Shown here in pieces: positions 9,082 through 25,802 of a DNA stretch of 64,000 bases. The DNA lies in contig MEDJ01000025.1 in NCBI GenBank assembly GCA_001724025.1, positions 1-64,000 on the forward strand, read 5' to 3'. Origin of the DNA: Acidobacteria bacterium SCN 69-37 (GTDB taxonomy: Bacteria; Acidobacteriota; Vicinamibacteria; Vicinamibacterales; SCN-69-37). The translations under genes were made by a program, and so were the position numbers. Within the stretch, counting starts at the first letter, position 1. Each line of letters opens with the position of its first letter. The notes under the pieces are model-generated. The model did not search any database, was not told the origin of the DNA, and saw only the letters and a list, made by a program, of their open reading frames with translations.

Positions 9082-10347
9082 CTAGCGGGCCATCTGCATG
9101 AGATAGACGAGGTAGCGGGCGCCAACCACGACGCCGCCCAGCAGCACGATCGCCCCGAGACGAATCGACAGCGGGTGCCCTGCCGCCAGACCCAGGGCCA
9201 GCCACGGGACGCCAATCGTCCACAGCGCGAAGATCGGTTTGGCGAACCGGGCCGTGGGCAGTTGGTTGGCCGGCCGCGCCGGCGGCTGACCGCCAAGGGC
9301 CGCCATGGCCCGGTAATAAGCGTAGAGCGGCACCAATCGGCCCTGGATACCCACCACGATCTGGGCGATGAACCCCACGAGGCCTGCCACGCCGTACACC
9401 CACGCCACGCGGATCTGGGCGGGACCGGCCGACATCAGCGCAAGTGTCAGACCCAGCCCGGCCGCCACGATCAACCACAGCAGCGCCATGTGCGTCTGCC
9501 AGGTGGACCAGTCACGCGACGGCAGGGCCGGCGGCCTCGGCAGCCGCTGCCGCACGGCCGCCCGCATGTTGCTGACGAAACTCATCAGGCCCGCGACGAT
9601 CACGAGCGCCCCGACGGGCAGCCAGGCCGGAGCGACGATCCAGGCGGCCACCAGGCCGATCAGCCCCAGTTCGAGCAGCCAGGCGCTGACCGCCAGACCC
9701 GAGCCCGTCGGCATCTTCGCGGGCAGGAACATCGGCACGAGCCGATACGCCAGCCCCACCACCATCATCACCGGCCAGCCGATGGCCGCCAGGTGCGCGT
9801 GCGCGTACGCCGCCTCGACCGGCGGCCAGCCGAAGAGGCCGTAGGCCCTGTCGAAGCCGATCGCCATCCCCACGCCGGCGGCAAGCGTCATGTTCACGAA
9901 AGCCAGCAGGACGTGCAGGAGGACCGGCCACGGCGCCGTGGCGCGACGCATGCCGAGGATGGCACGTCCGCCCTGCCACACCACGGCGAACAGCACGAGG
10001 CACGCCGACCACGCCATCAGCCCGTACTGCCCGCTCCATGCCTGCGTCACCATGCCGGTGGTGCCGGCCGCAAAGGCGACGAACGCGATCCAGTCCATGG
10101 CGCGTACCGGCAGCGGCAGGCCCAGGGCGAGCGGAGCCACCACGTAGAACGCCCCGAGGATCGATCCCGAGATCCACGCAATCGTTACCAGATGCACGAC
10201 CGCGACCATGCGTGGGTGCAGAAAGTAGCCGCCCGGCAGCGACGGCTCGACCGCCAGCACCAGGCACGCCAGCGCCAGCCCCAGGTGCGCCCAGACGAAA
10301 TACGCCATCGGCAACGCCGACGACGGCGTGAGCGCCTGACGGTTCAT
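9082..10347 (-). CDS. 12-TM heme-copper-oxidase-subunit-I-like membrane protein
   Basis: A 421-aa polytopic protein with about twelve hydrophobic segments. Histidines sit in helices in an oxidase-like pattern: HPRMVAVVHLVTIAW near residue 45, AYAHAHLAAIGWPV near 190, and WQTHMALLW near 290. This resembles NnrS and cbb3-subunit-I-like proteins found in NO and denitrification clusters, but it lacks the full set of catalytic ligands. I infer a heme- or copper-binding membrane protein involved in the NO response or in oxidase maturation rather than an oxidase. The start codon overlaps the cupin gene's stop by four bases, so the two are translationally coupled. The exact family needs a profile search. 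Confidence 0.65.
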   Translation of the reverse strand: MNRQALTPSSALPMAYFVWAHLGLALACLVLAVEPSLPGGYFLHPRMVAVVHLVTIAWISGSILGAFYVVAPLALGLPLPVRAMDWIAFVAFAAGTTGMVTQAWSGQYGLMAWSACLVLFAVVWQGGRAILGMRRATAPWPVLLHVLLAFVNMTLAAGVGMAIGFDRAYGLFGWPPVEAAYAHAHLAAIGWPVMMVVGLAYRLVPMFLPAKMPTGSGLAVSAWLLELGLIGLVAAWIVAPAWLPVGALVIVAGLMSFVSNMRAAVRQRLPRPPALPSRDWSTWQTHMALLWLIVAAGLGLTLALMSAGPAQIRVAWVYGVAGLVGFIAQIVVGIQGRLVPLYAYYRAMAALGGQPPARPANQLPTARFAKPIFALWTIGVPWLALGLAAGHPLSIRLGAIVLLGGVVVGARYLVYLMQMAR

Positions 10348-11470: not shown

Positions 11471-12508
11471 ATGGCTGCCACGCCCCCACCCGATCCCCGT
11501 GTGACACGCTGGCTGTACAGCGTCGCGATCATCACCTTCTGCCTCATCGTCTTCGGCGGTTTCGTGCGCCTGAACCGCGCGGGCCTGTCCATCGTCGAGT
11601 GGAATCCCGTCGTCGGCATCGCGCCGCCGATGACTGAAGCGGCCTGGACGACGGAGTTCGCGAAATACCAGGCGACGCCCGAATACCTCACCGTCAATCA
11701 CGCGATGACGCTGGGCGAGTACAAGACGATCTTCTACATCGAGTGGGCGCACCGCCTCATCGCGCGGCTCGCCGGTCTCGCCGTCGTCCTGCCGCTCGTC
11801 GTCTTTCTGTGGCGCGGGACGATCAGGTGGCGCGACTCGGCGCTGTTCCTCGGCATCGCGCTGCTCTTCGCCCTGCAGGGCTTCCTCGGCTGGTTCATGG
11901 TCCGCAGCGGCCTGCTCGAGACGCCGGCCGTCAGCCACTACCGCCTGACGATTCACCTGCTGATGGCCATGCTCCTGCTGGCGATCACACTGTGGGCGGC
12001 CATGAACCGCGACGCGCGGATCGGCCCGGCCATCCGCCGCATGGGCGACACGCCGGCCTCACGCGTCGCACTCGCGACGCTCGCCATCGTCACCGTGCAG
12101 ATTGCCTGGGGCGGCTTCGTGGCAGGCCTGAAGGCCGGACACGTGTCGTACTCGTGGCCCCTGATGGGCGGGGCGCTCGTTCCTGCCGGTCTGTTTGCCG
12201 GGGCCGATTCCTGGTGGGCCTCCATCTCCTCGCTCCCGGCTGCCGTGCACTGGCTGCACCGCTGGTTCGCCTTCGTCGTGTTCGCCGCCGTCGCGGGCCT
12301 GGTCCTCATCGCCCGGGGCCGCACGGTCTCACGCGCGGCACACCAGGCGATTCACGCGGCCGCCATGCTCGTCGGCGTACAGATTGCCCTCGGCGTCAGC
12401 GTGCTCCTGTGGCACGTGCCGGTGTCACTGGCCCTGTTACATCAGGCCGTGGGGCTCGGCATCTTCACCGCAATGCTCGTCGCCAACCACCGCCTGCTGC
12501 GAGCCTGA
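11471..12508 (+). CDS. ctaA: heme A synthase (COX15/CtaA)
   Basis: A 345-aa integral membrane protein that oxidises the C8 methyl of heme O to a formyl group, giving heme A for terminal oxidases. About eight transmembrane segments are visible in two four-helix halves. Conserved heme-ligand histidines appear in IEWAHRLIARLAG, in SHYRLTIHLLMA, in HWLHRWFAFV and in LLHQAVG, as in the family. The N-terminal GGFVRLNRAGLSIVEWNPV stretch is also typical. No ctaB (heme O synthase) is present in the window. Its place opposite the cupin operon, next to the heme-copper reductase, suggests that the reductase uses heme A-type cofactors. Confidence 0.95.
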   Translation: MAATPPPDPRVTRWLYSVAIITFCLIVFGGFVRLNRAGLSIVEWNPVVGIAPPMTEAAWTTEFAKYQATPEYLTVNHAMTLGEYKTIFYIEWAHRLIARLAGLAVVLPLVVFLWRGTIRWRDSALFLGIALLFALQGFLGWFMVRSGLLETPAVSHYRLTIHLLMAMLLLAITLWAAMNRDARIGPAIRRMGDTPASRVALATLAIVTVQIAWGGFVAGLKAGHVSYSWPLMGGALVPAGLFAGADSWWASISSLPAAVHWLHRWFAFVVFAAVAGLVLIARGRTVSRAAHQAIHAAAMLVGVQIALGVSVLLWHVPVSLALLHQAVGLGIFTAMLVANHRLLRA

Positions 12509-12529
12509 CGCGCCGCGAGGACCACGACC

Positions 12530-12973
12530 ATGTTCGGTGCGTTCCTGCTCCTTCACATCCTGGGCGCCACAGTCTGGACCGGCGGCCACCTCGTGCTGGC
12601 CATCACGATTCTTCCGCGCGTGCTGCGCGAGCGCGACCCGGCCGATCTGCTGCGCTTCGAATCCGCCTACGAACGCATCGGCATTCCGGCCCTGATCGTC
12701 CAGGTCCTGACGGGTCTCTGGCTCGCCTACCGCCAGGTTCCCGACGTCGGCGCCTGGTTCGCCTTCGAGCATCCCGTCGCCCGCCTCGTGAGCGTGAAAC
12801 TCCTGCTGCTGGCCATCACCGTCGGCTTTGCCATCGACGCGCGCCTGCGCGTCATTCCCCATCTGTCGGACAGGAACCTGCGCGATCTGGCGTGGCACGT
12901 GGTGCCCGTCACCATCGTGTCCGTGCTGTTCGTGGTGATCGGCGTCTCGTTCCGGACGGGCTGGTTCTATTGA
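12530..12973 (+). CDS. CopD-like four-TM membrane protein
   Basis: A 147-aa protein with four hydrophobic helices: LLLHILGATVWTGGHLVLA, a helix around LIVQVLTGLWLAY, VSVKLLLLAITVGFAI and VTIVSVLFVVIGVSF. The HILG...W.GGH start is typical of the CopD family of copper-transfer membrane proteins. It follows ctaA by 21 bp on the same strand and is probably co-transcribed. The gene set (SCO proteins, CuA subunit, copper NirK) makes copper delivery to periplasmic cuproenzymes the most reasonable role, but that is inference. Confidence 0.75.
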   Translation: MFGAFLLLHILGATVWTGGHLVLAITILPRVLRERDPADLLRFESAYERIGIPALIVQVLTGLWLAYRQVPDVGAWFAFEHPVARLVSVKLLLLAITVGFAIDARLRVIPHLSDRNLRDLAWHVVPVTIVSVLFVVIGVSFRTGWFY

Positions 12974-13033
12974 GGAGTGGCGCAACAGCGTCGTCCGCGT
13001 CGCGGCCAGTCACGATGGGAGTCGTGCGTCGGA

Positions 13034-13521
13034 TCCTGAAACCGTGGAGGTGTGGTTTCAAGCGATCGCACCTGTGAACCATGGAGGCACGGAGAGCAGG
13101 GAGATTTCATTTCAATCACCACTCCCTGTCCTCCCGATCTCCATGGTGTCCAAGCGATCACCCTGCCCGCGCAGCCGCCAGGCGCAGTCGAGCGGCTCGT
13201 GTCGATCCTGTCGTCGTCGAATCCAGTGAACCATGGAGGCACGGAGCGCAGGGAGATTTCATTTTCAATCACCACTCCCTGTCCTCCCTCCCTCCATGGT
13301 GTCCAAGCGATCACCCTGCCCGTGCAGCCGCCACGCGCAATCGAGCGGCTCGTGTCGATTCTGCCGTCGTCGAATCCTGAACACCGTGAAGGCGTGGAGA
13401 GCAGGCAGAGCGCGTCCCAATCACCACTCCCTGTCCTCCCGACCTCCATGGTGTTCAAGCGACCGCACCTGCCCGCGCAGCAGCCAGGCGCAGTCGAGCG
13501 GCTCGTGTCACACGACTGCCG
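13034..13521. repeat. 152-bp tandem repeat array, three units plus a remnant
   Basis: Units begin at 13074 (GTGAACCATGGAGGCACGG), 13226 and 13377, spaced 152 and 151 bp. A short remnant precedes them at 13034-13073. Each unit carries an inverted pair, CCATGGAGGCACGGAG near its start and CTCC...CCATGGTGT in the middle, followed by a conserved AGTCGAGCGGCTCGTGTCGA segment. The array fills the gap between the convergent CopD-like and SCO genes and ends exactly at the SCO stop codon. The reading frames through it are not protein-like. Confidence 0.85.
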
Positions 13522-14415
13522 CTACAGTGCCCTGACAGCGGCCACGATCGTGTCGGCTCCGCCCGGGAGCGCGTAGGTAATGCGCCCGTCGCGGTTGATG
13601 ACGTAGACCAGTGATGGGTGCGACAGGTCTCCCGTCCGTTCGTTGCGAATACGGGGGATCCTCCACGCATTCAGGACACGCTCGACCGCCATCGGCTCGC
13701 CCGAAAGCACGCGCGCGTCACCGGTCAGCCCCCATGCCTGCGCCATCGCCCCGAGCCGGCTCGGCGTATCACGCCAGGGGTCGAGCGTCACCACGAGGAC
13801 AGCAGGCGCTTCCGTCGTCAGTCTGGCGGCCGCCGCATTCACATCGGCCACGACCAGCGGACAGACAGTCTCGCAGTGCGCGAAGGCGAACGTCACGAGC
13901 ACGGGACGACCGCGGAACGCCTCGAGCGTGACCGTCTCCCCCTTCTGGTCGATCAACGACATGGCCGGCGGCGCGTCGTCGATGCGGGTCAGCGCGGCCG
14001 CGCCGTCCCGTGAGGCCCCGGCCGAAAACGTTTCGACGCCAGCTCCCGAGACGCGCACGACGACACCGCCGAGCCCCGCGATGAGCGCAGCAGCGACCGC
14101 GCCCGCGGCCACCTGGCCGGGGACGCGACTCATGAGGCGGGACAATCCGGCGCGAAGATCGGCCGGCCACACGGCCGCCAGCAGCGCAACCATGCCGATT
14201 GGCTGGCCGATCAGCAGGATCCACCCACCTGCGTGCGGCAGACCGTCGCGCGTCGCACCGAAACAGACCTCGCGCGTGCGCACGTACCACTCCGGCGCCG
14301 CGGCCTCCACGGGCCACAGCGCCAGGGCCCACCACGACGCTGTCACGAGTCCAATCAGGAACAACGCCGCGACGGCTGCCGAACCTCGCCTGGTCGTCGA
14401 GGGTGCTGAAGTCAT
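13522..14415 (-). CDS. SCO1/SenC-family copper chaperone with N-terminal membrane domain
   Basis: A 297-aa protein. The first about 130 residues form membrane helices (AALFLIGLVTASWWALALW, GGWILLIGQPIGMVALLAAV, AAGAVAAALIAGLGGVVV). The C-terminal half is the thioredoxin-fold SCO domain with the copper-binding CETVC (CxxxC) pair and the distal His in LSHPSLVYVI. SCO proteins insert copper into the CuA centre of subunit II. Its start overlaps the stop of the subunit I gene by four bases, so it is translationally coupled and probably dedicated to this enzyme. The extra N-terminal helices are more than the single anchor most SCO proteins have. Confidence 0.9.
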   Translation of the reverse strand: MTSAPSTTRRGSAAVAALFLIGLVTASWWALALWPVEAAAPEWYVRTREVCFGATRDGLPHAGGWILLIGQPIGMVALLAAVWPADLRAGLSRLMSRVPGQVAAGAVAAALIAGLGGVVVRVSGAGVETFSAGASRDGAAALTRIDDAPPAMSLIDQKGETVTLEAFRGRPVLVTFAFAHCETVCPLVVADVNAAAARLTTEAPAVLVVTLDPWRDTPSRLGAMAQAWGLTGDARVLSGEPMAVERVLNAWRIPRIRNERTGDLSHPSLVYVINRDGRITYALPGGADTIVAAVRAL

Positions 14416-16151
14416 CCAATCCTCCAGAGGAACGAGAGCACCTTCCAGTTCGCGTAGAAGTAGACGACGAACGCGGCCAGGAAGACGAACACCAGGATGA
14501 TGGTGCCCGGCGCCGGGCCCATGATGCCGCGCGACTTATCGTGCAGCTCGGCGTTGCGCGCATCGACGTCGGGCGCGTGCACGGGCGGGTGCGTCAGCCC
14601 CTGCGGCACGCCGACCATGGCCACGCCGCGCGTGATCGTCTCGAGCTTCTCACCGAAGAAGACCGACTTGACCGCAATCGCCACGAAGATCAGCGCGCCG
14701 GTCGCCGCCGTCACGCCGCCGAGCGCCACGACGGCCAGGATCACGTCCACGATCGGGTTGAACTGTACGTCGTACGGCGCCCCGCTGAAGCTGATGTCCC
14801 AGTGCCGACGCGGCACGCCGAAGCTGCCGGCGAACGTCATCGACAGCGTGAACACCAGCATGCCGCCGGCGAACAGGTACGGCTGGATCTTCGCCAGCTT
14901 CCAGAACGCGACCTTCCGCTGGAACACCAGGGGAATCAGGTAGTAGGTCGCGCCCATGAACGCCATCGCCGTGCCGCTGGCCACCGTGGAGTGGAAGTGC
15001 CCCGGCGACCGCAGCGTGTTGTGCACGATGATGTTGATCTGCTCGGTGCCGATCGTCACGCCGGTGATGCCGCCGACGAAACCGAAGACCACCACGGAAA
15101 AGACGAGCGAGCTGAAGCCCGGATCGCCCCACGGCGCGCGGCGCAGCCAGTCGAACATGCCCTGCGTGTATCCTCGCAGCCGCATGCCGAGTTCCATCCC
15201 GGCCGGCACCGTGAAGCCGTGGATCATCGACGCCAGCACGGCCATGTACATGAAGTAGCTGGTATTGACGATCTTCCACGCTGGTCCCATGCCCGGGTCC
15301 ACCAGCAGGTGGTGCGCCGAGGCCATCGAGATGAACAGGATGTAGAGGACGAACGCCGACCGGCTGATCTTCTCGTTCAGCACGACCGACCCGACCGTCA
15401 GCGCACCGAGCATGTACCAGATGGCCACCATCGCCGCGACGTTGATCTGCTGCGACGAGTGTCCCAGCGCCCACCAGATCATCCGGTAGACCTGCGGATC
15501 CACCTCCATCAGCCCGAGCGACCACAGGTAGGTCGGGATGTAGATGGCCGCGCCGTGGACCAGCGTGATGACCGCGATGATCGCGGCCGTCATCGCGCCG
15601 TAGACCACCAGCGGCACCGATCCCTCGTACCGCCGCTCGCGCTTCGCCACCACGAGGTTCGCAAAGAAGATCCCGACCGTGATCAGCGCGCCGACGGCAA
15701 ACAGGATGACACCGAGGTAGAAGTTCGGATCGGCCCGCAGCGGGACGTACGACGTGTAGAGCACGTCGGCCCGGCCGGACCACATCATCCACTCGACCAT
15801 CAGGGCGCCGACCAGCATGAGGCCGTACGCCGCCCATGTCGTCCGGACCGCGGTCTGCCGCGCATTGAGCAGCGCCGTGCTCGCGAACACCAGCACGGCC
15901 ATCTCGAAGAAGATGATGAAGAAGATCAGCATGCTCATGCCGTGGACGCCGAGCACGCGATAGAACCAGTCCGCCGGCAGCAGGTGCACGGCCTGCCAGC
16001 GCGTCAGCACGATCATGATGGCCGCGATCGCGCCGACGAGCAGGGCGACGACCGAACTCACGGCGTGGATCTTGACCAGCCGTTCTCCGGCCAGATCGAT
16101 ACGGCGGCCCGTTGCCGGGCAGGTCCTGAACACAGGATCCGCAGTCGTCAT
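14412..16151 (-). CDS. B-family heme-copper subunit I lacking the active-site Tyr; probable NO reductase
   Basis: A 579-aa membrane protein with about 13-14 helices. The metal ligands are all present: low-spin heme His70 (GVHGM) and His387, high-spin heme His385 (SPGHFHS), and CuB ligands His231 (GHSSQQ), His280 and His281 (SAHHLLVD). Oxygen reductases have His-x-x-x-Tyr at the first CuB ligand, giving the crosslinked Tyr. Here that position is Gln235. This loss, together with nirK, NirV-like and Crp/Fnr genes nearby, points to one of the B-family-derived NO reductases (I recall the eNOR/sNOR classes) rather than a ba3 oxygen reductase. It is the third gene of the operon small subunit, CuA subunit II, subunit I, SCO, with four-base overlaps on both sides. 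Confidence 0.8.
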   Translation of the reverse strand: MTTADPVFRTCPATGRRIDLAGERLVKIHAVSSVVALLVGAIAAIMIVLTRWQAVHLLPADWFYRVLGVHGMSMLIFFIIFFEMAVLVFASTALLNARQTAVRTTWAAYGLMLVGALMVEWMMWSGRADVLYTSYVPLRADPNFYLGVILFAVGALITVGIFFANLVVAKRERRYEGSVPLVVYGAMTAAIIAVITLVHGAAIYIPTYLWSLGLMEVDPQVYRMIWWALGHSSQQINVAAMVAIWYMLGALTVGSVVLNEKISRSAFVLYILFISMASAHHLLVDPGMGPAWKIVNTSYFMYMAVLASMIHGFTVPAGMELGMRLRGYTQGMFDWLRRAPWGDPGFSSLVFSVVVFGFVGGITGVTIGTEQINIIVHNTLRSPGHFHSTVASGTAMAFMGATYYLIPLVFQRKVAFWKLAKIQPYLFAGGMLVFTLSMTFAGSFGVPRRHWDISFSGAPYDVQFNPIVDVILAVVALGGVTAATGALIFVAIAVKSVFFGEKLETITRGVAMVGVPQGLTHPPVHAPDVDARNAELHDKSRGIMGPAPGTIILVFVFLAAFVVYFYANWKVLSFLWRIG

Positions 16152-16726
16152 TGCGCACCTCCGGCCGGTGTCGTCACCGGTCCGTCCTCGACGATGACGC
16201 GGCCGACCATGACGTGGTGGCCGATCCCGCAGAACTCGTTGCAGATGATCCGGAAGTCACCCGACGCATTCGGCGTGACCCGGAGCCCGTAGTCGTAGCC
16301 CGGCACGACCTGGAAGTTGATGTTGATGGGATACAGCGAGAACCCGTGGTTCACGTCGAGCGACGACAGGTGCAGCGTGTATTCGACGTTCTTCTGCAGC
16401 TTCAGGATCGGCATCCACTGGAACGAGAACGCCGCCAGATAGATGTCCGATCCGGGCGGCGGCGCCACGATCGGCATGCCGCGGTCATCGTCCACCTGAT
16501 ACTGCGTGATGAACTCCTGGACGCGCTCCATGAAGGCCGTCGGTTCGACCCGGCTGCGGATCCCCGACGGGTTCTGGCCGCCCTTCCAGTGCCAGATCGG
16601 CATCATCGCGAAGAGAATCAGGCACCAGACGAAGGCAATCGACACCCAGACCTTTTCCGCCTTGTGTGCCGGCTTCCACCACGCCGCCGGCGGGCACTCG
16701 AGTCCCGTATGTGTTTCGGTCGCCAT
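16148..16726 (-). CDS. CuA-containing subunit II of the heme-copper reductase
   Basis: A 192-aa protein with one N-terminal transmembrane helix (VWVSIAFVWCLILFAMMPIW) and a periplasmic cupredoxin domain. All CuA ligands are present: His127 (VNHGFS), Cys162, Glu164 and Cys166 (CNEFCG), His170 and Met173 (HHVM). It should accept electrons from a soluble cytochrome c or cupredoxin and pass them to subunit I. It starts just after the 56-aa subunit and overlaps subunit I by four bases. The length and single helix fit B-type (ba3-like) subunit II. In an NO reductase setting, a CuA subunit distinguishes this enzyme from cNOR and most qNORs. Confidence 0.93.
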   Translation of the reverse strand: MATETHTGLECPPAAWWKPAHKAEKVWVSIAFVWCLILFAMMPIWHWKGGQNPSGIRSRVEPTAFMERVQEFITQYQVDDDRGMPIVAPPPGSDIYLAAFSFQWMPILKLQKNVEYTLHLSSLDVNHGFSLYPININFQVVPGYDYGLRVTPNASGDFRIICNEFCGIGHHVMVGRVIVEDGPVTTPAGGAQ

Positions 16727-16735
16727 GAAGTCGCC

Positions 16736-16906
16736 TCAGGGGAGCGGGGCCGGCGGCAGCGTCTGGATCTCCCAGAGCCCCCAGCCGGTATAGAGCAGCA
16801 GCATGATCACCAGGCCGGCGCCCAGCAGCAGGAACATGTTGTCGAACAGGCGCTGACCGAGCGGAATCGGATCGTCGGGCGAGGAAGCGTCATCGGGGTT
16901 GGCCAT
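16736..16906 (-). CDS. 56-aa single-TM accessory subunit of the reductase
   Basis: A short gene with ATG at 16906 and TGA at 16738-16736. The acidic, Pro-rich N-terminus (MANPDDASSPDDPIPLGQRL) is followed by one hydrophobic helix (MFLLLGAGLVIMLLLYTGW) and a short Pro-rich tail. It lies 9 bp upstream of subunit II, in the position where ba3-type oxidases carry a small one-helix subunit (IIa). It is the first gene of the operon and starts 35 bp from the TATGA palindrome at 16941-16956. No sequence family could be recognised; the assignment rests on size, topology and position. Confidence 0.75.
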   Translation of the reverse strand: MANPDDASSPDDPIPLGQRLFDNMFLLLGAGLVIMLLLYTGWGLWEIQTLPPAPLP

Positions 16907-16940: not shown

Positions 16941-16956
16941 TATGACGTGCGTCATA
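16941..16956. promoter_or_regulatory. palindromic operator TATGA-N6-TCATA (site 1)
   Basis: TATGACGTGCGTCATA has perfect 7-bp arms around a 2-bp centre, written TATGA-N6-TCATA to match the second site at 25785-25800. The spacing equals the CRP consensus TGTGA-N6-TCACA with one changed base per half-site. It lies 35 bp from each of two divergent starts: the reductase operon (16906) and the porin operon (16991). It is a likely Crp/Fnr-family site. Confidence 0.65.
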
Positions 16957-16990: not shown

Positions 16991-18340
16991 GTGCCGCCCG
17001 CGGTTGCCCCCCTCCACGTCGATCGTGCGTTCCGGTTCGCCCCAGCCGCGATCCTGGTCTGCGCGCTCGTCGTTACCCATGTCGGCACCGCGGCGGCACA
17101 ACCAGTCACGCCCGCGGATCCGCGCGGCAGCCGGCCGCCGACGCTGTCGGTCGGCGTGGAATTCCGCGAGCGGATGGAGGCCACGGCCAACGCCGGGACG
17201 TCTCCCGGTCGCGACGACGTGTTCTGGCTCTCGCGGCTGCGGGTGAGCGTGACGGGACGCCCGACGTCGTGGGCAACGATGACGGCCCAGTTGCAGGACG
17301 CCCGCGTGGCGCACAAGGACATCGGTCCCACCGGGACGCCGTTCTCCGCCCCGCTCGACGTCCGGATCGCGCAGGTGGCACTCGGACGCTCGACCTCGCA
17401 GGTCAGCGGCACGTTCGGCCGCCAGGAACTCGCGTTCGGCGAGCAGCGGCTCGTCGGCCCGGTCGGCTGGGCAAACGCCGCGCGCACGTTCGACGCCGCC
17501 CGCGTCACGCTCCGTCAGTCGGGCCTCCGGGTGGACGGCTTCCTCGCGTCTGTCGTGCGCGTGCGCCGCACCGACTGGGACCGCGGCGGGTTCGGCAATC
17601 AGTTCCACGGCGTCTACGCCTCGACGACGCGCGTGATTCCGGCGGCGACGGTCGAACCATATTTCCTGTGGCGCGCCGATCGCGACCAGCGGACGGACGC
17701 GGGCACGTTCACGCCGCGGCATCTCGGGACCACGGGCGTGCGTGTCGCGGGCACCCTCCACGGCACGTTCGAGTACGGCATCGAGTCCGTCGTCCAGCGG
17801 GGCTCGCGCGGCCACGAAGTCGAGCGCGCGTACGCCCAGCATCTGCGGCTGCGGCTGCCGGCCCTGACCAGGGGCGTGCGGATCGTGACCGAATACAACT
17901 ACGCCTCGGGCGATCGGACGCCGGGCGACGGGCGTCACGGTACGTTCGATCCGCTGTATCCGACCCCGCACGACAAATACGGGCTGGCCGACCAGGTGGG
18001 CTGGCGCAACGTGCACCACGCGCGCGCCGCCGTCGAAATCACGCGGTATGCGCAGCTTCCGATCGCGGCGGCCTATCACTCGTGGTGGCTGGCCAGCCGG
18101 ACCGACGCGCTCTACACGGCCGGCGGGGCCGTGGCCGCGCAAATCCCCGACGGGGCACCGGGACGGCACGTCGGCCAGGAACTCGACCTGCAGGCGTCGC
18201 ACCCGTTCACGTCGCACGTGCAGGTGGCTGGCGGATACGCCTGCCTGTTCCCGGGCACGTTCCTCCGGGCCGCCACGCCGGGCGCGCGCATGCACGCCGC
18301 CTTTCTCATGCTCACGATCGCCGCGACGACCGGGCGCTGA
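16991..18340 (+). CDS. outer-membrane porin, alginate-export (AlgE-like) family
   Basis: A 449-aa protein with a signal peptide (AAILVCALVVTHVGTAAAQ) and an antiparallel beta-barrel body rich in aromatic strand ends. The early segment FRERMEATANAG...FWLSRLRVSVTGRP...AQLQDAR is the hallmark of the alginate_exp family, also found in many non-alginate outer-membrane proteins. The start is GTG at 16991. It begins a + strand unit with the cytochrome b fusion (24 bp gap) and lies opposite the NO reductase operon with a shared operator. It may admit nitrite or nitrate or another substrate; this is not determined by sequence. Confidence 0.8.
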   Translation: MPPAVAPLHVDRAFRFAPAAILVCALVVTHVGTAAAQPVTPADPRGSRPPTLSVGVEFRERMEATANAGTSPGRDDVFWLSRLRVSVTGRPTSWATMTAQLQDARVAHKDIGPTGTPFSAPLDVRIAQVALGRSTSQVSGTFGRQELAFGEQRLVGPVGWANAARTFDAARVTLRQSGLRVDGFLASVVRVRRTDWDRGGFGNQFHGVYASTTRVIPAATVEPYFLWRADRDQRTDAGTFTPRHLGTTGVRVAGTLHGTFEYGIESVVQRGSRGHEVERAYAQHLRLRLPALTRGVRIVTEYNYASGDRTPGDGRHGTFDPLYPTPHDKYGLADQVGWRNVHHARAAVEITRYAQLPIAAAYHSWWLASRTDALYTAGGAVAAQIPDGAPGRHVGQELDLQASHPFTSHVQVAGGYACLFPGTFLRAATPGARMHAAFLMLTIAATTGR

Positions 18341-18364: not shown

Positions 18365-19966
18365 ATGTTCCGTCGACTCGAACAGACTTCGCTCGCCCTG
18401 CTCACCCGCGCCGACGCCCTCTGCACCCGTCTGTATGGCTGGCGCTTCAACCCGCTCTACCAGAGCGGCACCATCGTCGTCGCGCTGTATCTGACGCTCG
18501 TGGCCACGGGCACCTGGCTGCTGCTGTTCTACCGCGTCGGTGCGCCGTGGGAGTCGGTCGATCGCATCACGGCCGATCCCTGGCTCGGCAACTGGGTGCG
18601 CGGCCTCCATCGCTACGCCACGGACGCCGCCGTCGTCTTCACGGCCATCCATGCGATGCGGATGTTCGCGCAGGGCCGCAGCTGGGGCGCGCGAAGCCTG
18701 GCGTGGATCAGCGGCGTCCTGCTCGTCGTGCTGATGCTGCTCGCAGCGTGGAGCGGTTACGTCATGGTGTGGGACGTGCTGGGCGAACGCCTGGCCCGCG
18801 AAGGCGCCCGCATGGCCGACGCCCTGCCGATCCTGTCGGAGCCGGTCAGCCGCGCATTCAACGGCGAACGGCCGGTGCCGAGCGTCTTCTTCTTCATCAC
18901 GCTCTTCGCGCACATCGGCATCCCGCTTGGAATGGGCGCGATGTTCTGGATTCACGTCAAACGGCTGCAGCGGCCGGCCATGCTACCCCCGCGCCCGCTG
19001 CTGTGGGGCGTGGTCGGTCTGCTCACGGCCGTGGCGCTCGTGCGTCCGGTCATCATGGCGCCGAAGGCGAATCCCTTCGCCCAGACCGCACACATCCCGT
19101 TCGATCTGTTCGTCGCGTTCTGGGTCCCGCTCACCGACGCGTGGTCGGGCGGTGCCGTCCTGCTGATGCTGATCGGGACGTTCGCGGCCCTGCTGATCTG
19201 GCCGGTGCTGACAACGCGCCGTGGCGCGGAGGCGGCCGCCCTGCCGCCCTCGTTCGTTGACGAGGACCTCTGCACCGGCTGCACGCAGTGCACGATCGAC
19301 TGCCCGTACGGGGCCATCGAGATGGTGCCGCGGAAGGACGATCGCCCGACGCTCGTGGCGCTCGTCGATCCGTCGCTCTGCGTCAGTTGCGGGATCTGCG
19401 CGGGCTCCTGCCCCCCGATGGGCGTCGGACCGGCAGGCCGGACCGGGCGCGATCAACTGGTCGGCGTCCAGGCATTCCTGAAGCAGACCCCACGCCCGGC
19501 CACCGGCGTCGTCGTCATCGGCTGCGATCACGGCGCCGGACGATTCGCGCACGCCATCGAAGCCTCGGGTGCGGCGTTCCAGGGCGTTTCCTGCGCCGGC
19601 AACCTGCACACGTCCGCCATCGAGCGGCTGTTGCGAGGCGGCGCCGACGGCGTCCTCATCATGGCGTGCCATCCCCGCGACTGCTGGAATCGCGAGGGGC
19701 CACGCTGGCTGTCCGAACGCATCTATCACGATCGCGAAGCTGAGCTGCAACCCCGGGTCCCGCGCACCCGCGTGCGCGTGACGCACGTGTCCGCCACGGA
19801 ACAGCCGGACGCGCTCGCGACGCTGGAGAGATTCGCGGCCGACGTGTCGCACCTGCCAGACGACCGCACCGTCTACGCCCGCGGCAACTGGTCACAGGAC
19901 GACACCGGTCTGGCCGAAGAGGCCGTCGAGTGCGTGCCGCCAGAGCCCGAGGAGGTGCGAAAGTGA
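18365..19966 (+). CDS. fusion: diheme cytochrome b, two [4Fe-4S] ferredoxin and MvhD/FlpD-like domains
   Basis: A 533-aa fusion. Residues about 1-285 form a cytochrome b/b6-like membrane part with two bis-His heme sites, His82/His96 and His183/His197, each pair 14 apart as in bc-type cytochrome b. Two ferredoxin motifs follow: CTGCTQCTIDCP (Cys303, 306, 309, 313) and CVSCGICAGSCP (Cys339, 342, 345, 349). Residues about 380-450 resemble the methyl-viologen-reducing hydrogenase delta subunit (MvhD/FlpD): IGCDHGAG, VSCAGNLHTSAIERLL, GADGVLIMACHPRDC. No Rieske or cytochrome c1 gene accompanies it. I infer a quinone-interacting module that exchanges electrons with a cytosolic iron-sulfur partner. 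Its stop overlaps the next gene. Confidence 0.82.
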   Translation: MFRRLEQTSLALLTRADALCTRLYGWRFNPLYQSGTIVVALYLTLVATGTWLLLFYRVGAPWESVDRITADPWLGNWVRGLHRYATDAAVVFTAIHAMRMFAQGRSWGARSLAWISGVLLVVLMLLAAWSGYVMVWDVLGERLAREGARMADALPILSEPVSRAFNGERPVPSVFFFITLFAHIGIPLGMGAMFWIHVKRLQRPAMLPPRPLLWGVVGLLTAVALVRPVIMAPKANPFAQTAHIPFDLFVAFWVPLTDAWSGGAVLLMLIGTFAALLIWPVLTTRRGAEAAALPPSFVDEDLCTGCTQCTIDCPYGAIEMVPRKDDRPTLVALVDPSLCVSCGICAGSCPPMGVGPAGRTGRDQLVGVQAFLKQTPRPATGVVVIGCDHGAGRFAHAIEASGAAFQGVSCAGNLHTSAIERLLRGGADGVLIMACHPRDCWNREGPRWLSERIYHDREAELQPRVPRTRVRVTHVSATEQPDALATLERFAADVSHLPDDRTVYARGNWSQDDTGLAEEAVECVPPEPEEVRK

Positions 19967-20526
19967 CGCTCCCGCTCAATCGATTCCCTGGCCTTGTGGT
20001 GGCCGCGGTCGGTGCCTGTGGCCTGGCGTGGCTGTCGCAGATACCGATCGCATCAGATCGGGCGTCCGATGCGGTGCTGCGCCTGACATGGCGCGCGCGG
20101 CCGGAGCGGATCGAACACTGCGTGACGCAGAGTCCCGAGGCCCTCGCCGCCCTGCCCCCGCACATGCGCCAGACGACGATCTGCGAAGGCATCAACGCGT
20201 CGTATCGCCTGGTGGTCCAGCACAACGGCGTCGTGGTGGCCGATCAGGTCGTCGCCCCCGGCGGCCTGCGTCGCGACCGTCCGCTGTACGTGTTCCGCGA
20301 GATTACGCTGCCGCCCGCCGACGACGCCGCGATCGTCGTCACGTTCACGCGCGTCGAGGCCGGGTCCGGCGATGCGGAGCCTGGACAGAGTGACAGGGAC
20401 ACGATGCGCGAATCCGTGCCGGCGTCACTCACGTGGGAACGGCACCTCCGGTTTGCCCCCGGCCAGGTCCGGATCGTCAGCTACGACCCCGAGCGGCGCG
20501 CGCTGTTCGAGGTCGTTCCCGGATGA
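19963..20526 (+). CDS. exported or membrane-anchored protein of unknown function
   Basis: A 187-aa protein starting with GTG at 19963 inside the stop of the cytochrome b fusion (GTGA overlap), with GAGG a few bases upstream, so it is tightly coupled. One N-terminal hydrophobic segment (LVVAAVGACGLAWLSQIPI) serves as signal or anchor. The rest is predicted soluble, with Cys residues at TWRARPERIEHCV and TTICEG that could pair. I do not recognise a family. Position suggests an accessory subunit of the cytochrome b/ferredoxin module facing the periplasm. Its last about 100 bp overlap the convergent GxxExxY gene. Confidence 0.7.
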   Translation: MTLPLNRFPGLVVAAVGACGLAWLSQIPIASDRASDAVLRLTWRARPERIEHCVTQSPEALAALPPHMRQTTICEGINASYRLVVQHNGVVVADQVVAPGGLRRDRPLYVFREITLPPADDAAIVVTFTRVEAGSGDAEPGQSDRDTMRESVPASLTWERHLRFAPGQVRIVSYDPERRALFEVVPG

Positions 20527-21139: not shown

Positions 21140-21823
21140 ATCACCGTGGAGGAAATTGAGGACATGGAGGACGGCAAAGGTTCCGCTCGGCTTCAGGGTC
21201 CGCAACGACCCAAAGGCCCCATGTACCCCCTGCTCTCCATGGTTCAGAGCCCGCGCCCCGGCGTGCCGCGTTCGGAATCAACCATGGAGGACATGAAGAA
21301 CATGGAGGCCGGTAAAGGCTCCGCGCGGATTCGGGACTCGCAACACCCCAAAGGCCCCATGTGCCCCCTGCTCTCCATGGTTCAGAGCCCGCGCCCCGGC
21401 GTGCCGCGTTCGGAATCAACCATGGAGGACATGAAGAACATGGAGGCCGGTAAAGGCTCCGCGCGGATTCGGGACTCGCAACACCCCAAAGGCCCCATGT
21501 ACCCCCTGCTCTCCATGGTTCAGAGCCCGCGCCCCCGGCGTGTCGCGTTCGGAATCAACCATGGAGAACACGAAGGACATGGAGACCGGTAAGAGGCTCA
21601 GCACGGCTTCAGGGCCCGCAACGACCCAAAGGCCCCATGTACCCCCTGCTCTCCATGGTTCAAAGCCCGCGCCCCCGGCGTGTCGCGTTCGGAATCAACC
21701 ATGGAGGACATGAAGAACATGGAGGCCGGTAAGAGGCTCAGCACGGATTCAGGACTCGCAACACCCCAAAGGCCCCATGTGCCCCCTGTTCTCCACGGTT
21801 CAAAGCCCGCGCCCGCGCCACGG
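21140..21823. repeat. 138-140-bp tandem repeat array, five units
   Basis: Units start at 21143 (diverged), 21281, 21419, 21558 and 21698, spaced 138, 138, 139 and 140 bp. Each begins AACCATGGAGGACATGAAG and contains CCCCTGCTCTCCATGGTT, so AACCATGGAG and CTCCATGGTT face each other inside every unit. The 139- and 140-bp spacings break any reading frame, so the ORF across it is spurious. The array ends at the stop codon of the SCO gene at 21824, just as the 13-kb array ends at the other SCO gene. Confidence 0.88.
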
Positions 21824-22477
21824 TCAGTCGCGGGCGCGGCGCACGGCGGCCACGAGAGCTCCACCGTCCGGCCCCACGCCTACCTGCCGATGACGGACGA
21901 CGCCCTCCCCATCGATGACGAAGATCATCGCGGAGTGCGCGATCTCCCCGTTTTCCTCCAACTGGTATCGCACCCCCAGCACGGCCGCCAGCGTCCGCAC
22001 GTCGTCCTCTGACGCCGCCAGCAGCCGCCAGCGCGCGGTGTCGAGCTGCTGCGTCCGCGCAAACGCCCGCATCGCCTCCGGCGTATCGCGGCCGGGGTCG
22101 AGCGAGAACAGCGTGTAGCGCACGTGACCGTCCACGCCCGCAAGTTGCCGCTCGATCGCCTTCATCTGCTCGGTCACCATGATGCAGACCGAGTCACACG
22201 AGGTGTAGACCATTGCCGCCAGCATGACCGTCCCGCGCAGGTCGGCCAACCGCAATTGCCGGCCCTCCTGATCGACCAGCGCCAGGTCGAGATCGAAGAT
22301 CGAGCCCTGGTCGATCGCTCCCGCTGCCGCGGGCAGTTCATGTGCGCCGGTGGCTCGCGCGTCAGCCGGCAGGGGCGACTCCGCCTGGCGGCCGCACGCG
22401 CCCCCAGACGCGATCGCCACAGTCAGCAGGCCGCCGACGAACCAGCGCGCCGATCCCGGGAACATGTTGCCGGTCAT
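21824..22477 (-). CDS. SCO1/SenC-family copper chaperone (second copy)
   Basis: A 217-aa protein with one N-terminal hydrophobic segment (WFVGGLLTVAIASGGACG), possibly a lipoprotein signal, though the box before Cys is atypical. The SCO thioredoxin-like domain has CDSVC (CxxxC) near residue 95 and the distal His in IAHSAMIFVI. It is probably periplasmic and delivers copper or reduces cuproenzyme thiols. The ATG at 22477 overlaps the stop of the FGE-family gene, making it the last gene of the crp-nirK operon. It differs from the first SCO protein in lacking the extra membrane helices, so the two may serve NirK and CuA respectively (inference). Confidence 0.9.
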   Translation of the reverse strand: MTGNMFPGSARWFVGGLLTVAIASGGACGRQAESPLPADARATGAHELPAAAGAIDQGSIFDLDLALVDQEGRQLRLADLRGTVMLAAMVYTSCDSVCIMVTEQMKAIERQLAGVDGHVRYTLFSLDPGRDTPEAMRAFARTQQLDTARWRLLAASEDDVRTLAAVLGVRYQLEENGEIAHSAMIFVIDGEGVVRHRQVGVGPDGGALVAAVRRARD

Positions 22478-23325
22478 CGCGTCCCTCCCCCGTTCTTCAC
22501 GCCGCGGAACCCCAGGCTCCCGATGCTGTATCGCGCCTCGAGGCTGCTGCGGAACGCGTAGCGCATGAACGCCGGGTAGTTCTCGAAGTCTGAAGCCCCC
22601 ATGGCGCCGCTGCCGCAATACAGCGTCCGATCCAAGGCCGAGTCGCCGCGCGACTCGCCCGTGACCAGCGCCGAGTTGAAGTCGAGGGTCCACTCCCACA
22701 CCAGGCCGTGCACGTCGCGCACGCCGTAGACCGTGCCGGCCCCCGACCCGACAGCCGGCAGGGGGACGGGCGCCGATCGCGCGTACCAGGCACGCAGACG
22801 CCCCAGGAACGTCGCGTCGCGCGAGGCATCGCGATCCGTCTCGCTCGCGGCCGCCACGTATTCCCATTGATCGACGGTCGGCAGATCTTTGCCCCGGGCC
22901 CGCAGGTAGGCGCGTGCGGCAAACCAGGAGACGTTGACGACGGGGCTCCCGGGCGGAGCGAGCGGCCCCAGTTCGAGATCGCCCTTCCAGTGTGCCAGGT
23001 AGTTGTCGTCGACGAACAGCCGCTTCGCCTGCGAGCGGCGCCACTCGGGATGCTGGTGGACGAATGCCAGGAACTGCGCGTTCGTGACCGGGTATTCGTC
23101 CATGTCGAACGCCGCCACCCGACGCCGCGCGCTCTCGCGTGCGGCGTCGGCGGCCGCGTCATCGGCAGCCGTCGGCTGCCGATAGAGCGGCGCGTAGCTG
23201 CCGGCCGGGACGCGAATCATCCCGGGCTCGCCCTCGCGGGCCAAGCCGGGGCGCGGGCCCGGGAGCAGGAACAGCAGGCCGGCCATCGCGGCGGCGATGG
23301 CCGGCAGGCGAACGGGATAGTGCAT
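22474..23325 (-). CDS. exported FGE/SUMF1-family protein, NirV-like
   Basis: A 283-aa protein with a signal peptide (IAAAMAGLLFLLPGPRPGLA) and a formylglycine-generating-enzyme-like (FGE-sulfatase) domain: RVPAGSY, MDEYPVTNAQFLAFV, NVSWFAARAYLRARGK, LPTVDQWEYVA, GLVWEWTLDF and the closing GSLGFRGVK. In denitrifiers, nirK is often followed by nirV, a member of this family with no known catalytic role. Position directly downstream of nirK and export to the periplasm fit a NirV-type partner. A 42-bp perfect palindrome separates it from nirK. Its stop overlaps the SCO start. Confidence 0.85.
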   Translation of the reverse strand: MHYPVRLPAIAAAMAGLLFLLPGPRPGLAREGEPGMIRVPAGSYAPLYRQPTAADDAAADAARESARRRVAAFDMDEYPVTNAQFLAFVHQHPEWRRSQAKRLFVDDNYLAHWKGDLELGPLAPPGSPVVNVSWFAARAYLRARGKDLPTVDQWEYVAAASETDRDASRDATFLGRLRAWYARSAPVPLPAVGSGAGTVYGVRDVHGLVWEWTLDFNSALVTGESRGDSALDRTLYCGSGAMGASDFENYPAFMRYAFRSSLEARYSIGSLGFRGVKNGGGTR

Positions 23326-23352
23326 GCGGGCCCCCTGAACCTCACGCCGCGT

Positions 23353-23394
23353 CCGCTGCCGGGAGACGACGCGCGCGTCGTCTCCCGGCAGCGG
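23353..23394. promoter_or_regulatory. 42-bp perfect palindrome between nirK and the NirV-like gene
   Basis: Left arm CCGCTGCCGGGAGACGACGC and its exact complement on the right meet at the centre near 23373/23374, giving a 21-bp stem without a mismatch. It lies 28 bp upstream of the NirV-like start and 43 bp after the nirK stop. There is no T-run, so it is more likely an mRNA-stabilising or attenuating hairpin, or a protein-binding site, than a simple intrinsic terminator. Confidence 0.75.
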
Positions 23395-23436
23395 CGGCAG
23401 ATACCACGCGGCGGCGATCCCCGCCGCCGCGATGGG

Positions 23437-24909
23437 TCAGTGCGCCGCGATGGCGGCCGTCGGCGGCGGTCCGCCGCGGCGGATCGCCGCGACCTCTTCC
23501 GGCGTCACGTCATGTCCGGCGTTCTGCCACTGACTGTAGACGTATGTCAGCGCATTCGCGACGTCATCGTCCGACATGCCCAGCGCAGGCATGACGCTGT
23601 TGAACTGCTGCCCGTTCACTGTCACGGGCCCGGTCAGGCCGAACAGGACGGCCGCGATGGCGCGTGGTTTGTCCGCGTTCAGGAAGTCCGAACTGGCCAG
23701 CGGCGGGAACGCAGCCGCCACACCCTGCCCTTCACCCTGGTGACAGGCCGAGCAGGTCGACGCATACACGCGCTGCCCACGTGCGATCCGCTCGGCCCGG
23801 TTCGCCGCCGGAGCCTGCACGGGGGCCGCATCCGTCATCGACTGGATCGCACTCCCTTCGGGCAGGTAGACCTCGTCGGCCTGCTTGCCGGAGTAGACCA
23901 CGGCGTTCTCCGGTCCGTCGACGTTGATCGTGCCGAGCGCCCCCTTGTTGAACGCCCGGAAAATCGAGTGGTCCACCAGGATCAGCGAGCCGGGCACCTC
24001 GACCTTGAATTCCACGACGGTGGCCCCGCCGGCGGGCACCAGGGTCGTCTGCACGTTGCGATTGACGACGCCCGTGCCGCCCTCGTGCAGGACGCGGTCG
24101 AAGATCTCCCCGATTACGTGGAACGAGGACACCAGGCTCGGCCCGCCATTGCCCATGAAGATCCGGACCGTCTCGCCAACCGACGCTTTCAGTCCGTTGT
24201 CGCCGCCGATCGCGCCGACCGATCCGTTGAACACCACATAGTCGGGCTTCTCCTCGATGGCCTTCTCCATGCTGAACGGCTGCAGCCCCGGCTCGCCGTA
24301 TCGGCCGGCCGTGTAGAACTCGCCCTGCATCACGTAGTACTCGCGATCGACGGGCGGCAGGCCGCCGGCCGGCTCCACCAGGATCAGGCCGTACATCCCG
24401 TTGGCGATGTGCATGCCGACAGGCGCGGTCGCGCAGTGGTAGACGTACAGCCCGGGGTTCAGCGCCTTGAACGAGAACCTCGACGAGTGGCCGGGCGCCG
24501 TCAGCGACGCCGCCGCACCGCCGCCCGGACCGTTCACGGCGTGCAGGTCGATGTTGTGCGGCATGCGGCTCGACGGGTGGTTGTTGAGGTTGAACACCAC
24601 CTCGTCGCCCTCACGCACACGGATGAACTTGCCGGGAACCGATCCCCCGAACGTCCAGAACGTATAGTCGACCCCGTCGGCGAGCCGCTTCACCACCTCG
24701 AGGACCTCGAGGTTCACCACGACCTTCGTCGGGTATTTCCGCGTGATGGCCGGCGGGACGTTCGGCGCGTCGGTCAGGACGGCCACCTCCTCGCCACGCA
24801 CGGTCTGGCTCACGCCCGACGAATCCGCACGCCCACACCCCGCGGCGACCACGGCTGCCAGCATCGCGGCGATCCCGCCCGTTATCCATGAATTCCTCGT
24901 CGCCGTCAT
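23437..24909 (-). CDS. nirK: copper nitrite reductase with C-terminal cytochrome c domain
   Basis: A 490-aa periplasmic enzyme that reduces nitrite to NO. It has a lipoprotein-type signal (AAVVAAGC). Two cupredoxin domains follow. Type 1 copper ligands are His118, Cys159, His167 and Met172. Type 2 ligands are His123, His158 and His314. The catalytic Asp121 and His264 ([10 protein letters not shown]) are present. A linker of about 35 residues leads to a class I cytochrome c domain with CSACH (386-390) and a likely axial Met in VMPALGM. The fused heme domain allows direct electron delivery. It follows the Crp/Fnr gene by 22 bp and precedes the NirV-like gene. Confidence 0.96.
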
Positions 24910-24931
24910 GACTTCCTCCTCACAGGCCGTG

Positions 24932-25621
24932 TCACTGCGCGGCCCGTTCCTCGAGCATCCGCCGGTTCGCCAGCAGGAACCCCTCGCGCTCGGTGACCAG
25001 GATCTCGTCCTTGCCCCACCGGCTCATGATGCGGATGCAGGTTTCAATGGTCGTGCCCGTCATGTCGGCCAGTTCCTGGCGCGACAGCGGGAACGGGACG
25101 AACGTGCCGTCCGGCCTCGCCTGTCCGAACTGATCGCCCAGTTTGAGGAACAGGCGCGCGAACCGCGCGTCGACCGCCGATCCGGTCAGTTCCGTCAGGC
25201 GATCGGTCAGCTCGATCAGCCGCAGCGTCAGGCCCGACAGGACGCCGCGCATCAGCAGGGGCGATTGCTCGAGCAGGCTGAAGAACTCCTGGCGGGGCAG
25301 CAGCAGGCAGGTGGTCGGCTCGATGGCCTGGGCCGACGCCGGGTAGGGGCGTCCCTCGTAGACGGCCACGGCGCCGAGCAGATCACCGACGCCGAAGATC
25401 TGGAGAATCAGATCCTTGCCGTTGGCCAGGCGCTTGTAGATCTTCACGCGGCCTTCGACAACGGTCACGAACGCGTGCGACTCGTCGCCCTCCTGGAAGA
25501 TCTCGTCGCCTCGGTCGTAGGTGTGCAGGCGCCCGGCCTCCGCCACACGCGCGCGGTCATCCGGCCGCACGCGACGGAACAGGGGCAGCCTGGCCAGCAG
25601 GTCCGGGTTGGGCTTTGACAT
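24932..25621 (-). CDS. Crp/Fnr-family transcriptional regulator (second copy)
   Basis: A 229-aa regulator: N-terminal effector beta-roll ([40 protein letters not shown]), dimer helix, and C-terminal winged helix ([20 protein letters not shown]). It has no FNR-type Cys cluster. I chose the ATG at 25621, which gives a family-length protein, over an upstream start that adds 37 unlike residues. It is the first gene of the operon crp, nirK, NirV-like, SCO. Two palindromes lie upstream (25783-25802 and 25854-25867), and each recurs before another operon of the island. It is therefore probably autoregulated and a regulator of the nitrite/NO genes. Confidence 0.92.
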
Positions 25622-25782
25622 GCGGCAGGCATCATACGGGAGATCGAGGCCGAGAACCTCCCCCTCCCCGCCGTGGCCGCGGGTGGGACCATCCCATGTC
25701 CCTGTCTGCCCCTCTCCCGCGCCCGTCCGCATCGCCGCCGCCCCCGTGTCGCTCTCAGTTATAGAACGGGCCCTTGACGCGA

Positions 25783-25802
25783 CATATGAGCCGCGTCATA
25801 TG
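25783..25802. promoter_or_regulatory. palindromic operator TATGA-N6-TCATA (site 2)
   Basis: CATATGA, six bases GCCGCG, then TCATATG: perfect 7-bp arms. The core TATGA-N6-TCATA is at 25785-25800 and matches site 1 at 16941-16956. It is about 160 bp upstream of the Crp/Fnr start at 25621, in a gene-free stretch of about 370 bp. This would imply a long 5-prime leader or a transcription start well upstream of the gene. Confidence 0.6.

Follow-up and report, generated by a model that had tools for sequence, protein, structure and literature searches.

The electron donor of the nitric oxide reductase eNOR is generally taken to be cytochrome c, and genome annotations often mistake the enzyme itself for a cytochrome c oxidase. 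Heme-copper oxygen reductases carry a cross-linked tyrosine in their active site. Glutamine instead of this tyrosine is the criterion for eNOR, which is described there with two subunits, a cytochrome b module being no part of the definition in the texts consulted (PMC8756737). The same paper tabulates a protein, RME88945.1, with the domains PRK03735, DMSOR_beta-like and FlpD, the same domain set as that described here (cytochrome b6, FeS, FlpD), but solely because it carries a homologue of the domain studied in that paper, with no eNOR link or function drawn (PMC8756737). In the literature searched, FlpD and nitric oxide reductase occurred together only in that paper, where they are not linked, and no published account of a cytochrome b-eNOR link was found in a search that excluded the main eNOR paper (PNAS 2024).

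Among related assemblies, two complexes of Kuenenia that serve nitrogen metabolism (Kuste4569-4574 and Kustd1480-1485) have a bc-type membrane core joined to an FeS/NAD(P) arm on the cytoplasmic side, and possess a Rieske protein, multiheme cytochrome c and b6 plus subunit IV (PMC12954380). In heterodisulfide reductase (Hdr) complexes, MvhD carries a [2Fe-2S] cluster and is the electron connector from dehydrogenases to HdrA (PMC12350162).

The window analyzed here, a stretch of 64,000 nucleotides from an acidobacterial genome, encodes a protein of 533 aa that combines elements of these systems:

18365-19966 (+): fusion of cytochrome b (TM helices A-F), two [4Fe-4S] clusters and FlpD/MvhD, 533 aa (Pfam, AF2 model, conservation in 92 sequences)
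18404-19219 (+): membrane module, residues 14-285, bc-type TM helices A-F with H82/H96/H183/H197 (VIA Z 20-24.6, invariant His)
19103-19105 (+): codon of D247, at the Glu position of the Qo motif PEWY (conservation, profile alignment)
19250-19423 (+): bacterial-type 2x[4Fe-4S] ferredoxin domain, residues 296-353 (Fer4 matches, eight conserved Cys)
19508-19855 (+): FlpD/MvhD domain spanning residues 382-497; Cys conserved at positions 387, 410, 435 and 440 (PF02662)
19963-20526 (+): TM-anchored periplasmic beta-domain protein (fusions in homologues, model of a fused homologue)

The protein resembles bc1 cytochrome b in TM helices A-F, the four heme histidines and an ef loop at the PEWY position, but has an Asp for the PEWY Glu, a C-terminal FeS/FlpD arm and no Rieske or cytochrome c1 partner. 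It shares the bc-type core and cytoplasmic arm with the Kuenenia complexes, whereas here there is one FlpD polypeptide and the partner is eNOR. The order Fer4-Fer4-FlpD is common to HdrA2/MvhD (FlpD) of heterodisulfide reductase complexes and this protein, which differs from HdrA in lacking the FAD/TrxR domain and in being tied to a membrane cytochrome b. As established here at the level of sequence, the cytochrome b module is conserved and co-inherited with eNOR in a wide range of bacterial phyla. This association suggests that electrons take a route, not described before, which connects the inside of the cell with the reduction of NO to N2O.

Domain Organization and Conserved Ligands

The preliminary description of this gene had proposed a diheme cytochrome b fused to two [4Fe-4S] clusters and an MvhD-like domain, and this is borne out by Pfam matches above cut-off and by conserved ligands. 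The ORF matches Cytochrome_B (51.2 bits, residues 30-199), Cytochrom_B_N_2 and Fer4/Fer4_6/Fer4_7 (residues 298-350), and the MvhD assignment, for which a domain search had been named as the check, is upheld by FlpD PF02662 at 52.4 bits (residues 408-497) against a gathering cut-off of 22.3. In NCBIfam, residues 296-497, in the order Fer4-Fer4-FlpD, correspond to the C-terminal part of HdrA2 (NF040770). The protein is both the sole FlpD match and the sole PF00033 cytochrome b in the source genome. No bc1 complex is evident in this genome, which is listed as 100% complete and has one PF00033 cytochrome b only.

Histidines H82/H96 and H183/H197, the two pairs of heme ligands that helices B and D contribute in a bc-type cytochrome b, are invariant among the 92 aligned sequences, and a trans-membrane path is therefore conserved. 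Of the 92 sequences, 89-91 retain the respective cysteines of the Fer4 motifs (eight in all), 88-90 retain C387, C410 and C435 of the FlpD domain, and 78 retain C440. Solved MvhD chains are matched by the family profile of the protein (E 1e-12), and an alignment via a homologue places Cys 410, 435 and 440 on MvhD cysteines. The N-terminal motif of MvhD is CxxC. In the 533-aa protein it is reduced to a single Cys, and C387 would lie near the position of this motif. The FlpD domain probably holds one further FeS site, beyond the two [4Fe-4S] clusters.

Conservation of this kind bears on whether the protein carries electrons at all. It adjoins SCO, a known metal chaperone family, as might be expected of an assembly factor, an NO sensor or a redox-inert scaffold for eNOR, but the strong conservation of all heme and FeS ligands makes such a role most unlikely, and a sensor would have no need of two hemes across the membrane.

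Membrane Fold and the Qo-Like Loop

The AlphaFold (AF2) model of the 533-aa protein (pLDDT 92.7, pTM 0.89) aligns over residues 14-285 with helices A to F of bc1 cytochrome b (VIA, Z 20-24.6), with an rmsd of mostly 2.5-3.9 Å over ~255 residues, corresponding to bovine residues 24-310. The model therefore predicts a membrane part larger than a b6-like half, running from helix A through F and including the Qo-site ef loop, with helices G and H of bc1 absent. Within this loop, D247 is an Asp in 91 of 92 sequences, replacing the Glu of the Qo motif, and in a profile alignment it falls on the D of PDWY in a full-length cytochrome b. Its surroundings in homologues are mostly DW[F/W][Y/F] or D[L/V]FY. 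The complete motif, PEWY or PDWY, was not found, the acidic residue alone being kept, and in the source protein (DLFV, continuing as DLFVAF) the motif W is lost.

The retained loop raises the main rival to the reading developed below, namely that the protein is a bifurcating quinol oxidase. Quinol would be oxidized in Qo-like fashion on the p-side, with one electron passing at high potential to CuA of eNOR and the other through the hemes b, FeS and FlpD to NAD(P)+ or ferredoxin as cytosolic acceptor, such that eNOR replaces Rieske/c1 and the FeS-FlpD arm replaces the Qi site. The conserved Asp and the presence of helices A-F agree with this, as do a NuoF-like partner in some loci and a related cytochrome b-Fer4 and FlpD pair that lies by Rieske, cytochrome b and oxidase genes (locus L013), and a precedent has been proposed in the Rieske/b complexes of Kuenenia with NAD(P) oxidoreductase subunits (PMC12954380). 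The unit has no Rieske protein, however, and thus no mobile taker of the first electron; CuA would need to come within tunneling distance of the pocket; the motif W is missing from the source protein; and the BenC-type reductase found at some loci is normally an NADH oxidizer. Bifurcation is accordingly considered unlikely.

The Periplasmic Companion

The gene at 19963-20526 begins with a GTG that lies within the stop of the cytochrome b gene (4-bp overlap), and the two are translationally coupled. Its product had previously been suggested to be a subunit of the cytochrome b protein, which is very probably correct because in many lineages the two are one polypeptide, with the periplasmic domain attached at the C-terminal end of cytochrome b behind an additional TM helix. 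In a model of such a fused homologue (pLDDT 83.6), the alignment puts this additional helix, the anchor of the periplasmic domain, in the bc1 helix G region. The fused architecture would agree with a topology that places FeS/FlpD on the cytosolic side and the beta domain on the periplasmic side. Pfam and NCBIfam are silent on the periplasmic domain, and a fold search with the fused model returned a list filled by cytochrome b matches rather than matches to the beta domain.

The eNOR Operon and Its Surroundings

The following features surround the cytochrome b gene:

11471-12508 (+): CtaA heme A synthase (PF02628, 299 bits)
13522-14415 (-): SCO/SenC copper chaperone of the eNOR operon (PF02630, 88.9 bits)
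14412-16151 (-): eNOR subunit I, heme-copper, motif GHSSQQINV (COX1, 203 bits)
16148-16726 (-): eNOR subunit II, cupredoxin, CuA ligands H127, C162, E164, C166, H170, M173 (COX2/CoxB profiles)
16736-16906 (-): ORF of 56 aa with a single TM, with which the eNOR operon probably begins (ORF list)
16941-16956 (no strand): TATGAC-GTGC-GTCATA, a perfect inverted repeat in the gap that divides the operon of eNOR from that of the porin and cytochrome b
16991-18340 (+): alginate-export-like porin, transcribed in the same direction as cytochrome b (PF13372, 205 bits)
22474-23325 (-): FGE/sulfatase-modifying-factor-like protein in a NirV-like position (PF03781, 100.9 bits)
23437-24909 (-): NirK copper nitrite reductase with a C-terminal cytochrome c domain (TIGR02376, 344.6 bits; PF00034)
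24932-25732 (-): Crp/Fnr-family regulator (PF00027 and PF13545)

Judged by its sequence, the neighboring heme-copper operon (13522-16726, -) is that of an eNOR. Glutamine occupies the tyrosine position in GHSSQQINV, as it does in all 70 sequences aligned there, and a cupredoxin subunit II adjoins subunit I, with the CuA ligand set complete in 69 of 69 subunits II. The neighbor had been described beforehand as NO-reductase-like, and the glutamine and intact CuA sharpen this to eNOR. Assignment as a cNOR, a qNOR or an O2 reductase is ruled out by Gln at the Tyr position.

A second SCO gene lies within the stretch 21824-25732, together with the NirK-cytochrome c, FGE-like and Crp/Fnr genes, and the setting is therefore one of denitrification. 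The porin between the two operons was not found in the close relatives L009 and L010 and is not a conserved part of the unit. Annotations for Defluviimonas, Thermomicrobium and Thermus also show small ORFs where the window has its 56-aa ORF, before the gene of eNOR subunit II. Minisatellite-like tandem arrays lie near the SCO genes, at 13074-13509 (153 bp x 2.9) and 21143-21814 (138 bp x 4.8). Further out, a multi-TM protein of 421 aa (9082-10347, -) beside a Crp/Fnr gene has no Pfam match when searched whole, and a weak COX1-like stretch (E 8e-4) appeared in the genome search.

Distribution and Linkage to eNOR

A scan of species-representative genomes gave 587 stretches encoding relatives, of which the best 80 were examined. 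These come from Gemmatimonadota, Acidobacteriota, Myxococcota, 'Deltaproteobacteria', Bdellovibrionales, Eisenbacteria, Verrucomicrobiota, Nitrospirae, Nitrospinae, Calditrichota, Spirochaetia and Alpha-, Beta- and Gammaproteobacteria. Flanks of 6 kb or more to the left and right of the gene are available at 34 of the best 80, most others being cut by contig ends, and eNOR I and II are present at all 34, with SCO at 33 and the periplasmic protein or its fusion at 32. Recurrence beside heme-copper NOR operons was the point on which the preliminary description had staked its reading of the neighborhood, and the architecture does recur there in many genomes. No close homologues were found on viral contigs.

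An eNOR-centered survey covered one phylum, Acidobacteriota, and a plasmid collection. Among 199 Acidobacteriota genomes, five have eNOR, and the one-ORF cytochrome b occurs in those same five; among 396, ten have a Gln-type eNOR, with the module adjacent in nine. Eight weaker Acidobacteriota matches (~33% identity) have Tyr at the site and are other heme-copper enzymes. On a Defluviimonas plasmid the order is subunit II, subunit I, heme O synthase, SCO, cytochrome b, small protein and hemerythrin. Chance co-location is rejected by the 34 of 34 loci together with the co-occurrence in Acidobacteriota.

Pairwise identities of cytochrome b correlate with those of eNOR I at r = 0.88 over 74 loci, compared with r = 0.90 over 66 loci for eNOR I against II. 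Gln-type eNORs on Thermus and Thermomicrobium plasmids, and one of the ten from the 396 Acidobacteriota genomes, have a subunit II gene and no module nearby, and eNOR as such therefore needs no module. In the eNOR I tree all module-bearing sequences group together and the three without the module fall outside, a grouping favored by the sampling, as most sequences were gathered via cytochrome b.

The previous finding that the protein has no Rieske or cytochrome c1 partner also holds, in that no Rieske protein or cytochrome c1/f is among the conserved neighbors of the surveyed loci, and the single Rieske-domain ORF of the source genome is ~133 kb away on the contig. The anammox-type combination of a Rieske protein with multiheme cytochrome c was likewise not found among these conserved neighbors. 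Nor is a c-type cytochrome a constant operon partner, CXXCH proteins occurring near 17 of 85 loci and often being NirK. A different setting is seen in another acidobacterial genome (G097), with a split cytochrome b-Fer4 and FlpD pair; its cluster (L013:4861-13102) contains an oxidase, c-type cytochromes, a Rieske protein, a full-length PDWY-like cytochrome b, the cytochrome b-Fer4 protein and a separate FlpD.

These patterns and the intact ligand sets make it very likely that the cytochrome b protein is a dedicated partner of eNOR, and nearly as likely that it is a redox-active one. The patterns also bear on a looser arrangement, in which the protein is a stand-alone NAD(P)H- or ferredoxin:quinone oxidoreductase that is co-expressed with eNOR and feeds the quinone pool. 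The same domain evidence and the quinone-site-like loop would suit such an enzyme, as would the existence of eNOR without the module, but its divergence keeps step with eNOR I to much the same degree as that of subunit II, and the presence of eNOR at every full-flank locus is tighter than expected of an enzyme acting at the level of the pool, such that this alternative appears quite unlikely.

If most eNORs of this large clade carry a cytosol-facing diheme/FeS module, then the bioenergetics and physiological donor of these enzymes need rethinking. The module would also make eNOR operons, and with them the producers of N2O, simple to recognize in genome sequences.

NAD(P)H-Linked Neighbors and a Possible Electron Route

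BenC-type modules serve in NADH oxidation, and NarI/NarH represent the quinol-oxidizing type of membrane anchor with diheme b and Fer4. At three loci (L066, L074 and L082) a NuoF-like gene lies between two cytochrome b gene copies, overlapping or close to them, and scores 458-467 bits to TIGR01959, under its cut-off of 558.65. At two more, a second diheme cytochrome b fused to Fer2-FAD-NAD directly follows the eNOR unit (L072:12078-13991 and L080, ~12200-14130), its Fer2-FAD-NAD part being closest to BenC-type NADH reductases, and may be a membrane NADH oxidoreductase. Such NuoF-like or NADH-reductase partners occur at 5 of ~85 loci and are absent from the source window. They suggest that the partner on the cytosolic side is NAD(P)H and are, although few in number, the main evidence for direction, with a flow from NAD(P)H to eNOR having roughly an even chance of being right.

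The best reading, which we put just short of even, is that the protein and its periplasmic companion make up a redox module dedicated to eNOR, by which NAD(P)H or ferredoxin in the cytosol is connected with the periplasmic side. Low-potential cytosolic electrons, supplied either by ferredoxin or by NAD(P)H via a dehydrogenase (NuoF-like or another), would enter at the [2Fe-2S]-type site of FlpD and pass via the two [4Fe-4S] clusters to the heme b on the cytosolic side and then to that on the periplasmic side. There the Qo-like pocket (D247) and the periplasmic domain would pass them on to the CuA of eNOR, directly or through bound or pool quinone, for the reaction 2 NO -> N2O. The analysis itself gives the architecture, the conserved ligands, the linkage to eNOR in gene order and evolution, the domain fusions and a predicted fold; the topology of the FeS side, a physical complex, the direction of the electrons, their donor and their exit route are what we infer.

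Favoring this dedicated module are the linkage at 34 of 34 loci and in nine of ten Acidobacteriota, the Defluviimonas plasmid, the parallel divergence, the conserved ligands, the periplasmic fusions, the NAD(P)H-linked genes, a palindrome shared by eNOR/cytochrome b and nirK upstream regions in several genomes, and the connector role of MvhD in Hdr complexes. Against it, the NAD(P)H-linked partners are few, some eNORs occur with no module nearby, NuoF and FlpD can run both forward and in reverse, the Qo-like loop that is kept suggests quinone chemistry, and transfer from NADH to a p-side quinone would waste energy. The opposite flow, in the manner of NarI, would take p-side quinol via heme b and FeS/FlpD to a reductive reaction in the cytosol, leaving eNOR as merely an operon-mate. 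The diheme b and Fer4 module does resemble quinol-oxidizing anchors, yet a cytosolic reductase is not among the conserved neighbors, and we regard this as very unlikely.

Whether driven by NADH or bifurcating quinol, a Rieske-free supercomplex in which a bc1-derived cytochrome b and an HdrA2-like cytosolic FeS arm are wired directly to eNOR is a tentative proposal, somewhat less than evenly probable. If true, the reduction of NO and the NAD(P)(H) or ferredoxin of the cytosol would be coupled in many bacterial phyla: NAD(P)H could pay directly for NO reduction, or NO could oxidize quinol and so drive the reduction of NAD(P)+ or ferredoxin.

A Shared Palindrome and Regulators

The inverted repeat at 16941-16956 follows the pattern TATGAS-N4-STCATA, which the window also contains at 25785-25800. 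Across 1.5 Mb of related loci, TAYGAS-N4-STCRTA occurs nine times, against 0.6 expected from base composition, and at least six of the nine stand immediately before genes for eNOR/cytochrome b or nirK (in L009, L010, L056 and L060); a seventh is ~270 bp before eNOR II in L056. The palindrome is, on this distribution, probably the site of a denitrification regulator, and may be that of the Crp/Fnr regulator. Canonical FNR boxes in the window are near chance level. At 12 loci a regulator of the Rrf2 family lies between eNOR and cytochrome b (e.g., L053:4216-4635 and L019:9449-9934), and profiles of these regulators favor IscR over NsrR.
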